Positions 18,192 through 24,594 of a DNA stretch of 64,000 bases are shown here, one piece after another (the stretch's first letter is position 1; the number at the start of each line of letters is the position of its first letter). The stretch lies in NCBI GenBank assembly GCA_029838215.1, contig JALGVI010000017.1, forward strand, positions 1-64,000, written 5' to 3'. Both the position numbers and the translations under genes were made by a program. The stretch is from Candidatus Helarchaeota archaeon (GTDB taxonomy: Archaea; Asgardarchaeota; Lokiarchaeia; Helarchaeales; RDOG01). The notes beneath the pieces were generated by a model that had not been told where the DNA came from, searched no databases, and was given only the letters and a program-made list of their open reading frames with translations.

Positions 18192-18264
18192 CCATTTTTA
18201 TGTTTAATTTTAGTTTAGATATATAGCGAAACATTTGATAAAATAAATATAAGAACAAAAAAAA

Positions 18265-18288
18265 TAACCCCTATATTTCCTTTGAAAA
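18265..18288 (-). promoter_or_regulatory. ORB-like element (degenerate)
   Basis: taacccctatatttcctttgaaaa; matches spacing of ACCCC plus TTTCC..TTGRAA. Confidence 0.45.
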
Positions 18289-18460
18289 TGAAGTATAATT
18301 TCTTTTATTAACAATAAAATGTAAAAAAATTGATATGCTTCTCTAAAAAATTTGTAAAAAGCTATATAAATAAATTGAATGAATAACCGAATGAAGAGAT
18401 TTATTCCTATTTAATAAACATTTCTTTTTTTTAAGAGATTTAATTTTATAATAAATAATT

Positions 18461-18484
18461 TGGAATCGAAATCGAGGGGAGTCT
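18461..18484 (+). promoter_or_regulatory. ORB-like element, inverted orientation (degenerate)
   Basis: ttggaatcgaaatcgaggggagtc; GAAAT..GAGGGG. Confidence 0.35.
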
Positions 18485-18513
18485 TATATTTCAAAATTTG
18501 TATTATCCAAGTA

Positions 18514-18540
18514 TTACCCCTTCATTTCCATTGGAAGATC
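18514..18540 (-). promoter_or_regulatory. Orc1/Cdc6 origin recognition box-like element
   Basis: ttaccccttcatttccattggaagatc; reverse complement TTCCAATGGAAATGAAGGGGT has dyad plus G-tract. Confidence 0.65.
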
Positions 18541-18603
18541 AAAATTTTATATTATTTTGCTTGAAAGTTTATATTAATTTAACCGAAAGAATGAGGCATT
18601 TTA

Positions 18604-19986
18604 ATGCATATAAAAAATAAAATGCAACTTTTAAATAATAGGAAAGGGAAAATGCAAGAAATCCGGAAAATAATATTAAACTCATTAGAATTTTGTTTAA
18701 AAACAATTGATCCTCAAAGTTTAGTTCAAAAAAATGTAAGAATTAAAAAAAATATTTTAGAAATTGGTAAAATTCAATATAACTTAAAGGAAATAAATGA
18801 TATTTATGTCATTGGAGGAGGGAAAGCGAGTAAGTTAATGGCCCAGACAATATCTTCCATTTTAAATTCAAGGATAAAAAAAGGGATAATAATTGCCTTA
18901 AAAGGAACAATATTTAACAACAATATAAAAAATATAGAAGTTTGGGAAGGAACTCATCCCATTCCGTCAGAGTCGAATATTCAAGGAACCAAAAAAATGA
19001 TGGAAATTATTCAAGATCTTACTTCTAACGATTTAGTTATTGGATTAATTTCTGGAGGAGGATCGGCATTAATTAATCTTCCAGCTCATTCAATTCCACT
19101 TAAAGACATGCAAAAGTTTTATGATATTTTATTGAAACATGATCTTGACATAATAAAGATAAATACCTTACGAAAACATGTTTCTCAAATAAAAGGAGGA
19201 CAGTTGGCTCAGTTATGTTTTCCAACGCCAATGATAAACTTAATAATTTCAGATGTTTTAAACGATCCTCTTGAATATATTGCTTCGGGACCAACCTGTC
19301 CAGATACAACTACTTTTGCCGACTGCATGCAAATCATCACAAAACATCGAGTGAAGGGTATTCCTTCGTCTATCATGCAACATTTCCAAAAAGGATTAAG
19401 AAAAGAAATACCAGAGACACCTAAACCTGGAGATAAATGCTTCACTACAGTTAAAAATATTATCGTCGGAAATCTCAAAGTAGCGTGCGATTCCATACAA
19501 GAATTTTTAACTGAAAAGGGAGTGAATGCTAGCATTATTGACTATAGTTTAAGTGGAAATGTCATGCATTTAGCAAGTTATATTCACGATATAGCGAAAC
19601 GAATGCTTGACAAGCATAAACCATTTGATCCTCCGGGATATCTAATTTTTGGTGGTGAATCTACGGTAGAAATTACATGTATTCCTGGAACGGGTGGACG
19701 TAATCAAGAATTATCATTACACGTAATGAACAAATTTCAAGATGAGGATATAGAATACGTGTTTTGTTCTATTGGAACTGATGGGATTGATGGAAACTCC
19801 ACGGCAGCCGGAGCACTAATTGATTTTCAAACACCAAGAGATGCTCGCAAGAAAGGATTGCAATGTCTTTCTTTTCTACAAGATCATGATTCATATAACT
19901 ATTTTAAGAAATTGAATGATGGTTTGATCATTACAGGACCTACGGGAACAAACGTTGCAGATGTAATGGTATTGTATTTGGAATGA
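18604..19986 (+). CDS. Glycerate 2-kinase (MOFRL family)
   Basis: VIGGGKASKLMA, GTHPIPSESN, LISGGGSALI, GGESTVEITCIPGTGGRNQELSL, GTDGIDGNSTAAGA. Confidence 0.93.
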   Translation: MHIKNKMQLLNNRKGKMQEIRKIILNSLEFCLKTIDPQSLVQKNVRIKKNILEIGKIQYNLKEINDIYVIGGGKASKLMAQTISSILNSRIKKGIIIALKGTIFNNNIKNIEVWEGTHPIPSESNIQGTKKMMEIIQDLTSNDLVIGLISGGGSALINLPAHSIPLKDMQKFYDILLKHDLDIIKINTLRKHVSQIKGGQLAQLCFPTPMINLIISDVLNDPLEYIASGPTCPDTTTFADCMQIITKHRVKGIPSSIMQHFQKGLRKEIPETPKPGDKCFTTVKNIIVGNLKVACDSIQEFLTEKGVNASIIDYSLSGNVMHLASYIHDIAKRMLDKHKPFDPPGYLIFGGESTVEITCIPGTGGRNQELSLHVMNKFQDEDIEYVFCSIGTDGIDGNSTAAGALIDFQTPRDARKKGLQCLSFLQDHDSYNYFKKLNDGLIITGPTGTNVADVMVLYLE

Positions 19987-22459: not shown

Positions 22460-22624
22460 ATGCACAAAACACAATCGCATGAGGTTAAAAAAATGAATGC
22501 AGTCGAACAATTAAAAGAAAGCAAAATCTTGTCAATAATGACCACATTGGTGGCATTTGCAACGGGTTCTAATCTTGCAACCTCTGGAAGTGCCGGTCCT
22601 TGGGGTCCTTGGCCTTTCCCATGA
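22460..22624 (+). CDS. 54-aa peptide MHKTQSHEVKKMNAVEQLKESKILSIMTTLVAFATGSNLATSGSAGPWGPWPFP; candidate precursor or signalling peptide
   Basis: Complete ORF absent from track, with TATA box, upstream tandem repeat and downstream T-tract. Confidence 0.55.
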   Translation: MHKTQSHEVKKMNAVEQLKESKILSIMTTLVAFATGSNLATSGSAGPWGPWPFP

Positions 22625-22655: not shown

Positions 22656-23023
22656 TTTTCAAATTTTTTGTGAATAAGTGGATTCTCTACGTAAACTAAA
22701 TTCACATAACTTAAGTGATTCAGTTTGTGAATTAATTTTAAATAGACGAGAAAAGAATATTGACGAAATCCGACAAAAAAAGAAAACATTAGAAAGTCAA
22801 TATTGAATTATCATAAATACATCTTTACTTTATATCGGTAATTTATAGAAATTAGAAATTATTATTAATATTCACGTCAAAGTTTAGTTTTTACGTATTA
22901 ATATGGTCGTTCAAGATATTTGAACGTAGATATTAATCAGTTAATATATTTTTTATGAATCAAAGTTCACATAATTCTTATGGTTCACAATTCTTTGTGA
23001 TTAAAATTTTGTCTAATCATACT

Positions 23024-23050
23024 TGAACCCCATAATTTCCATTGGAACTC
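23024..23050 (-). promoter_or_regulatory. Orc1/Cdc6 origin recognition box-like element
   Basis: tgaaccccataatttccattggaactc. Confidence 0.6.
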
Positions 23051-23064
23051 GACTTATTTAGACG

Positions 23065-23078
23065 TTCACATATGTGAA
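23065..23078. repeat. Perfect 14-bp palindrome TTCACATATGTGAA
   Basis: Direct reading; between two ORB-like elements. Confidence 0.8.
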
Positions 23079-23082
23079 ATTA

Positions 23083-23109
23083 TGACCCCTTCATTTCCAT
23101 TGGAAAATC
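23083..23109 (-). promoter_or_regulatory. Orc1/Cdc6 origin recognition box-like element
   Basis: tgaccccttcatttccattggaaaatc; reverse complement TTTTCCAATGGAAATGAAGGGGTCA. Confidence 0.65.
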
Positions 23110-23207
23110 TTGCTACCAATAAGTTTTAAGAAATTTGAAACTTAAAATTCTAGAAAATATAATGTGAATTTTATAATCGGTCGAAAAAATCAAATAAAAC
23201 AAAAAAG

Positions 23208-23966
23208 ATGGAAATAGATTATATGGATCGCGTGAGGATAATCAAAGCGTTTTTAAACGAGGGTTTTGAAATAGATCCAGCTTTATTGAAGTTCATTCAA
23301 TATCATGATGATTCTGAATCCTGCTTATTTGAAGTATTAAATAGAGTAAAACGAACGAAGAATTTACCTTCTGTCTTGACGTTGTCCTTGATTCAAGATG
23401 GTGTTTCTTCATCAAAAGCTAATAGAAATGCCTCCATTTCATCGAAGGAATCCAGCTTATTTTTGAAAAATGTCAAGCGTTCAAGATTTCATTCTAACGT
23501 GATCATTTACAAAGACCCTACTGGACGTTCTTTCAGTACAGGTCAAGTTGAAGATTTTTCAAACCATTTTTTATTAAGATATCAGATGCTTAAAACCATT
23601 CTTCGCCAGCGTCCAGAGGCGAGAAACGCAATTTCCATCTCTAGAATTAAGTTCATCAATAATTCAGAGATTGGAATCATTGGAATGATACGATCGAAAG
23701 TAGAGAAACAATCACGAAGCATATCACTTGAATTAGAAGATGAAACTGGAAGAATTGTTGGAATAATTTCTTCAAAAGAACAGGAACTCTTGAAGAAAGC
23801 CGTTCACCTGCTAAACGATCAAGTAATTTATTGTAAGGGTCAAAAATGGAATTCTAGTTCGTTTCAAATTAAGGATTTTTTTTGGCCAGATGTTCCATTT
23901 AACAAGCAAGCAACAGGATATTGCCCTTTCCGTAAAATATTTAATAATTGCTGGGGATATCGTTGA
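23208..23966 (+). CDS. DNA polymerase D small subunit (DP1), N-terminal/OB part, frame-disrupted
   Basis: OB-fold region SIIGMIRSKVEKQSRSISLELEDETGRIVGII ... KDFFWPDVPFNK then out of frame. Confidence 0.8.
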   Translation: MEIDYMDRVRIIKAFLNEGFEIDPALLKFIQYHDDSESCLFEVLNRVKRTKNLPSVLTLSLIQDGVSSSKANRNASISSKESSLFLKNVKRSRFHSNVIIYKDPTGRSFSTGQVEDFSNHFLLRYQMLKTILRQRPEARNAISISRIKFINNSEIGIIGMIRSKVEKQSRSISLELEDETGRIVGIISSKEQELLKKAVHLLNDQVIYCKGQKWNSSSFQIKDFFWPDVPFNKQATGYCPFRKIFNNCWGYR

Positions 23967-24594
23967 TGGGATTGGCGTGTATAAAAATCAGGAAAATGAT
24001 TTATATATCAACGACATTAATCAGCAATATGAAAAGGTGGCTTCTTATCTAACGTCCCTCCCCGAAGACCTAACAATAATAATGATTCCTGGAGGAGCAC
24101 ATGATGCAGTTCGAAAAGCATTACCTCAACCTGCTATTCCCAAAAAACACGCACGCGATCTTTATGAAATGAAAAATGTTATAATGCTTGGAAATCCCTG
24201 TTTTTTTTCTATTCATGGAGTCGATTTCCTTGTATACCACGGTGAAGGATTGGATGATGTTATACCTGTCATTCCTGGTCTAAGTTATGAAAATCCGTGC
24301 TCTTGTATGAAAGAATTTTTAAAAAGTCGTCATTTAGCACCTTGCTATGGAACAAAAACAAGTATTATTCCCGAAAAAGAAGATTTCATGGTCATTGATC
24401 GAGTCCCTAACGTGTTGCATTGTGGACATGCCCATGTTTCAGACTATGTTGACTATCGAGGCGTGAAATTAATTAATAGTGGATGTTGGCAAGGTTTGAC
24501 TTCCTTCCAAAAAGAAAGGGGAATAACCCCTACTCCAGCAAAAATATCGATTTTGAATTTGAAGACTTTAAAGACTCAATTCATCCAGTTTTAA
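23890..24594 (+). CDS. DNA polymerase D small subunit (DP1), C-terminal phosphoesterase part
   Basis: VKYLIIAGDIVDGIGVYKNQE, PGGAHDAVRKALPQPA, HCGHAHVSDY, INSGCWQGLTSFQKERGITPTPA. Confidence 0.88.
   Translation: MFHLTSKQQDIALSVKYLIIAGDIVDGIGVYKNQENDLYINDINQQYEKVASYLTSLPEDLTIIMIPGGAHDAVRKALPQPAIPKKHARDLYEMKNVIMLGNPCFFSIHGVDFLVYHGEGLDDVIPVIPGLSYENPCSCMKEFLKSRHLAPCYGTKTSIIPEKEDFMVIDRVPNVLHCGHAHVSDYVDYRGVKLINSGCWQGLTSFQKERGITPTPAKISILNLKTLKTQFIQF

Follow-up and report, generated by a model that had tools for sequence, protein, structure and literature searches.

Two near-identical short repeats lie directly in front of the gene for the PolD small subunit (DP1) in a Candidatus Helarchaeota genome. 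The locus raises the question of whether these repeats are ORBs, i.e. binding sites of the initiator Orc1/Cdc6 at a chromosomal replication origin, or whether they have another source or serve the neighbouring gene instead. The window, which is the whole 64-kb stretch of DNA that was analysed, is on contig C23 of a fragmented 3.6-Mb assembly (G000; 170 contigs, 6.2% contamination), and genome-wide statements on this genome are based on pattern searches.

ORB sites upstream of DP1

A preliminary description of the window had reported two near-identical elements upstream of DP1, and this is borne out: the two strings are located exactly, at positions 23024–23050 and 23083–23109. Their cores are both on the minus strand. 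The proximal ORB at 23085–23105 (TTCCAATGGAAATGAAGGGGT) has no mismatch to the ORB pattern and shares the best matrix score of the window, and the distal ORB at 23027–23047 (TTCCAATGGAAATTATGGGGT) has one mismatch and the third best score, with a weight matrix that was trained on 20 ORB sites, all from other genomes. The cores are direct repeats with 90% identity over 21 nt and are spaced 58 bp from start to start. This pair, termed cluster 2, is 98 bp from the DP1 start codon at 23208.

The common archaeal ORB motif given for Ori-Finder 2 is TCCA[CG]T[TG]GAAA[TC][GA]AAGGGGT (PMC4164010, Table 1). The site at 23085 and a further one at 18516 differ from it at the dyad centre alone, where both have an A, and the site at 23027 differs at three positions. 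The window sites have the consensus arrangement of TCCA-N-T-N-GAAA, a 4-nt spacer and GGGGT. No match to the 23-mer ORB pattern turned up when the window was shuffled 100 times, and TCCANTNGAAANNAAGGGGT, with up to one mismatch allowed, occurs three times in the whole 3.6-Mb genome, at 18516, 23027 and 23085.

An exact scan of 85,462 GTDB prokaryote genomes finds the class TTCCAATGGAAATNAAGGGGT at 59 loci, compared with an expectation of about 0.5 (20 fixed bases, 264 Gb, both strands), and 58 of these loci are in archaeal-titled records. By an Orc1 profile search, 30 of these loci have an orc1/cdc6 gene within 1.2 kb of the exact ORB; the remaining 29 have no adjacent orc1, partly owing to short contigs. 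It should be added that the alignment behind the Orc1 profile includes some wrongly extracted fragments; its matches are mostly at E below 1e-80, and a blastp cross-check was made with the correct paralogues. All 29 of the long ORB-adjacent Orc1 proteins have the same paralogue as their best match in each of four genomes of the order, which in the genome of the window is the Orc1 encoded on contig C165 (mean 45% identity and 337 bits, the next paralogue reaching 147 bits). The C165 protein, of the Orc1-1 type, is the likely cognate initiator of the window ORBs. The ORB-like motif match proposed at the outset agrees with the outside consensus, with genome-wide rarity and with the way the exact 21-mer class is tied to orc1 genes across archaea, and the view that the 21-mers are ORBs, i.e. 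predicted Orc1/Cdc6 binding sites, is supported. Chance similarity in AT-rich DNA could draw on the low GC content of the region and nothing more; it is refuted statistically, since the sites are unique in the genome, clustered, conserved and linked to orc1, and its probability is negligible.

The one exact locus outside archaeal-titled records is in a bacterial Cloacimonas bin. The contig concerned (LKUH01000080.1; L194), which is 2 kb in length, carries an archaeal ORB together with an archaeal-type orc1 gene, and since an archaeal-type Orc1 is encoded there, the contig is probably mis-binned.

Other motifs accompany the ORBs of cluster 2. A perfect palindrome, TTCACATATGTGAA, is at 23065–23078, 6 nt past the G-string of the proximal ORB. 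It is the sole exact copy in the genome, and a copy with one mismatch has the equivalent place beside an ORB of a family-mate (G001:C6:45241). Eight TTCACA/TGTGAA hexamers form an array at 22669–23168 (22669 −, 22701 +, 22726 −, 22966 +, 22984 +, 23065 +, 23073 − and 23163 −). An AT-rich, easily melted stretch at 22775–22875 is between the two halves of the array. It may act as an unwinding element of cluster 2, and among non-overlapping 60-bp places of the window the second least stable, at 22813, falls in this intergenic stretch. The AT-rich centre of the same stretch has an imperfect inverted repeat of 25 nt that is split by a gap of 5 nt (22890–22944), and an open reading frame of 54 aa ending in TSGSAGPWGPWPFP is found 5′ of cluster 2 (22460–22624). 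Scans of sigma-70-type promoters and terminators gave nothing above shuffles, but in archaeal DNA they carry no meaning.

The DP1 gene itself (23208–24594, plus strand) is interrupted. It consists of two overlapping open reading frames, 23208–23966 and 23890–24594, both of which are matched by NF003118. Alignment with DP1 of relatives shows a loss of about 46 codons, among them those of the SDxH phosphodiesterase motif, and a frameshift near 23915. Short CAAG repeats are present at the deletion junction (23878–23966). No DP1 other than this interrupted copy was found in the genome. The likeliest explanation of the deletion and frameshift is an assembly deletion, with a genuine lesion as the less likely alternative.

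Cluster 1 and the predicted site of melting

The five best matrix scores in the 64 kb are those of 23085(−), 18516(−), 23027(−), 18267(−) and 18460(+), which are confined to two intergenic stretches, and such clustering of several ORBs in intergenic DNA is as in origins of the oriC1 type. Cluster 1 is the intergenic stretch 18195–18603, which has tRNA-Leu on one side and, on the other, a glycerate kinase gene that starts at 18604. It has one strong ORB at 18516–18536 on the minus strand (TTCCAATGGAAATGAAGGGGT, no mismatch, joint best score) and two degenerate ones that the matrix scan adds to the sites described before: 18267–18287 on the minus strand (TTTCAAAGGAAATATAGGGGT, fourth best score of the window) and 18460–18480 on the plus strand (TTGGAATCGAAATCGAGGGGA, fifth best, with 0.0024 expected in the interval). 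The layout is that of a divergent pair, 18267(−) and 18460(+), with 18516 as a further box. The three strong ORBs of the window, 18516, 23027 and 23085, share one orientation, whereas relatives usually have inverted pairs; the inverted partner present here, 18460, is degenerate.

The divergent pair flanks 172 bp with 84% A+T (18288–18459), which is the predicted unwinding element and corresponds to the AT-rich, easily unwound stretch that ORBs flank in oriC1-type origins. The least stable DNA of the whole window is within it, both for 60 bp (at 18399) and for 100 bp (at 18362). This makes cluster 1 a better candidate for the site of melting than cluster 2, which would be a second block.

Taken together, the sequence features make it very probable that the ORBs of clusters 1 and 2 are sites for Orc1/Cdc6 within a single chromosomal origin of replication, a zone at about 18.2–23.2 kb. 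The C165 Orc1-1 would bind each ORB through its winged helix at the TTCCANTGGAAA part and its AAA+ domain at the GGGG part; it would also bend the DNA and bring in MCM, as is general for archaeal Orc1 proteins. Melting would most likely start at the AT-rich 18288–18459, between the divergent ORBs of cluster 1, and cluster 2 would add another block of bound ORBs to the zone, its TTCACA array serving a putative second factor. Binding, melting, MCM loading and firing at the two clusters are what we infer from this arrangement.

ORB clusters, DP1 and orc1 in related genomes

Relatives of the same order have ORB clusters of their own. The family-mate G001 has four ORBs in alternating orientation (C6:40144–40788), and the order-mates G002 and G003 have three (C112:202, C112:538 and C77:232) and two (C108:12354 and 12419), respectively. 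In G001 a second ORB block is found 4.4 kb from the four-ORB cluster, and the two resemble clusters 1 and 2 of the window; this second block shows the same composite as the window, an ORB, 5–6 nt and TTYACATATGTGAA. The suggestion that clusters 1 and 2, about 4.5 kb apart, form one origin zone gains backing from this two-part layout. Another family of the class has ORB pairs that face away from each other, about 155–220 bp apart, and adjoin a small winged-helix gene, with an ABCE1-type gene (named by eye from its sequence) on the opposite side in most cases.

Nucleotide disparity, which is expected to have an extremum at an oriC1-type origin, was followed in two relatives. The GC skew of the G001 contig C6 is flat to weakly inflected. 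The keto skew of G006 peaks at 120–180 kb, around an ORB pair at 144 kb, and is the single supportive case.

The ORB-containing intergenic stretches of G003 (L074:11969–12912) and G001 (L058:118–1062) have their own repeats, CTTATGTAAAG, and inverted ATTTACAAAC pairs, which are perhaps diverged forms of TTCACA. A DUF6788 protein adjoins the ORBs in G003 (L074:11537–11968, Pfam match), and a protein judged by eye to be of the same type is near the ORBs of Candidatus Hodarchaeum mangrovi (L233:11486–11851).

Proximity to replication genes such as DP1 is typical of oriC1-type origins and is evident at cluster 2, and DP1 is present in six of the 59 loci with the exact ORB. The expectation that relatives would keep ORBs upstream of DP1 failed: they are absent directly upstream of DP1 in G001, G002 and G003, and ORBs that directly adjoin DP1 were seen in the genome of the window only. 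This bears on the possibility that cluster 2 is an Orc1-dependent operator, or a titration site, for DP1, and cluster 1 likewise for the glycerate kinase gene. The strong ORBs do sit 5′ of co-directional genes, namely DP1 and the kinase, a TTTTATAA box is found about 33 bp before the DP1 start, cluster 2 has no inverted ORB pair, and an Orc1-2 paralogue of another archaeon is reported to act as a damage-response transcription regulator (PMC9738581). On the other hand, none of nine scanned DP1 loci of relatives has an ORB at up to three mismatches, and the paralogue on C165 belongs to the type of initiator that is encoded beside ORBs. Moreover, the G001 composite of ORB, palindrome and TTCACA array has a winged-helix gene on one side and, on the other, a gene that by eye is mutL-like; it is not in front of DP1, and such a position is hardly that of an operator for DP1. 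A role as operator or titration site is unlikely, and an origin zone remains the preferred reading.

The preliminary description had also appealed to a cdc6–DP1 neighbourhood. Taken literally this does not hold, as the 64-kb window and contig C23 have no orc1/cdc6 gene, and the four full-length ones of the genome are on other contigs; adjacency of an oriC1-type origin to orc1/cdc6 is usual but not universal. Within the order, no ORBs at up to two mismatches are found beside the orc1 loci. Regionally the neighbourhood stands. In Candidatus Hodarchaeum mangrovi, another Asgard archaeon, DP1 (C295:28.2–29.8 kb), orc1 (29.8–31.1 kb) and ORBs (33.1 and 34.0 kb) are all inside 6 kb, with 3.4 kb between DP1 and the ORBs. 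In G001, the 80 kb around the cluster include DP1 at 8.8 kb, orc1-1 at 25.2 kb and orc1-2 at 65.5 kb. In the genome of the window, the counterparts of the genes that neighbour this cluster are in the window itself, on contig C57, which has orc1-2, and at the end of C165, which has orc1-1. This distribution suggests, without proof, that the window contig, C57 and the end of C165 are genomic neighbours.

The neighbourhood also bears on whether the ORBs came from an integrated plasmid or virus with its own archaeal-type origin. Multiple archaeal origins are thought to derive from integrated elements (PMC4010727), and the genome does have four orc1 paralogues. The flanks, however, are ordinary chromosomal genes: besides DP1, the window has genes for malic enzyme, tRNA-Leu, a fructose-bisphosphatase type, an actin-family protein, Ras-family GTPases and a roadblock/LC7 protein, and this neighbourhood is common to G001, G003 and Hodarchaeum. 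The actin-family, Ras-family and roadblock/LC7 genes, along with what the region has in common with Hodarchaeum, indicate an Asgard host. In addition, the paralogue of the cognate type is the conserved Orc1-1 and not a divergent one. An origin brought in by such an element is very improbable, and a chromosomal origin zone accords better with the flanking genes.

A candidate second factor and comparison with known origins

The TTCACA array of cluster 2 amounts to eight hexamers in 580 bp compared with 0.35 expected (P about 4e-9, for a hexamer picked after the fact). TTCACA is also abundant beside ORBs elsewhere, with nine copies in G002 (P about 5e-11), seven in the second ORB block of G001 (P about 5e-9) and eight beside the Hodarchaeum ORBs (P about 4e-8). 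No TTCACA arrays are found near the orc1 genes of the order, and TTYACA arrays are absent at the tested ORB pairs of family f4 (G006, G014, G018 and G022).

Related genomes also have an ORB-linked gene for a winged-helix protein of 85–130 aa that ends in RGRP plus a short tail. One to three homologues are found in nine of ten genomes searched, G003 having none. The gene is within 1.5 kb of an ORB or ORB pair in G018, G022, G006, G014, G001 and G061, and 2.6 kb from an ORB in G002. Linkage is thereby seen in at least seven genomes, and in four of these (G022, G006, G014 and G001) the gene was found without the use of ORBs, which makes them independent cases. Matches to the Lrs14, Sta1, Sul7s and TrmB models are far below or at the edge of the cut-offs. 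The small protein is a candidate origin-associated DNA-binding protein.

The homologue in the genome of the window (G000:C71:10220–10432; L216) is near a contig end, beside genes that by eye look like ribosomal-protein genes. No ORB was found beside it on the stretch examined. There is no TTCACA array upstream of the gene, and its autoregulation via such an array is unsupported.

It is tempting to think that Orc1-1 is joined at Asgard origins by another origin-binding factor, with the TTCACA array possibly read by the ORB-linked winged-helix protein. The significant arrays in four genomes (the window, G001, G002 and Hodarchaeum) speak for this. Against the pairing of protein and motif, G006, G014, G018 and G022 have the gene and no array at the tested ORB pairs, and in the genome of the window the gene is on another contig. 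The proposal is accordingly a tentative one, and rather doubtful as it stands.

No ORB-based or experimentally mapped Asgard origin was found in the open-access literature; for Odinarchaeum there is a skew-based origin candidate only (PMC9246712). If the present reading is true, replication in Asgard archaea, to which eukaryotes are more closely related than to any other known group, begins at Orc1 boxes defined by their sequence, and this would provide a concrete starting point for the question of how eukaryotic ORC lost sequence specificity. The analysis also gives precise coordinates, names a candidate initiator and points to a second motif that can be tested.

With respect to known systems, there is some likeness to Sulfolobus oriC3 and other WhiP-type origins, which have a second, winged-helix initiator, in that a winged-helix gene is origin-linked in related Asgard genomes. 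The Asgard protein differs in that it is about 85–90 aa in length, has only below-cut-off likeness to Lrs14, Sta1, Sul7s and TrmB, and is a putative binding protein. The Candidatus Hodarchaeum mangrovi region (JAEOUE010000298.1; L186/L233) resembles the window more closely, with ORBs, a TTCACA array and DP1 close together, but there the 6 kb also include orc1 and a pair of small winged-helix genes, which are on other contigs in the genome of the window. In relation to archaeal oriC1-type origins (Pyrococcus oriC, Sulfolobus oriC1 and haloarchaeal oriC1), the window ORBs differ in that no orc1 adjoins them within the window, the dyad centre is an A, one of the blocks has a TTCACA array, and the two blocks are 4.5 kb apart with three genes between them. 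What they share with these origins is the ORB dyad and G-string, several ORBs in AT-rich intergenic DNA with an easily melted stretch between them, a DP1/orc1 neighbourhood and a cognate Orc1-1-type protein in the genome.
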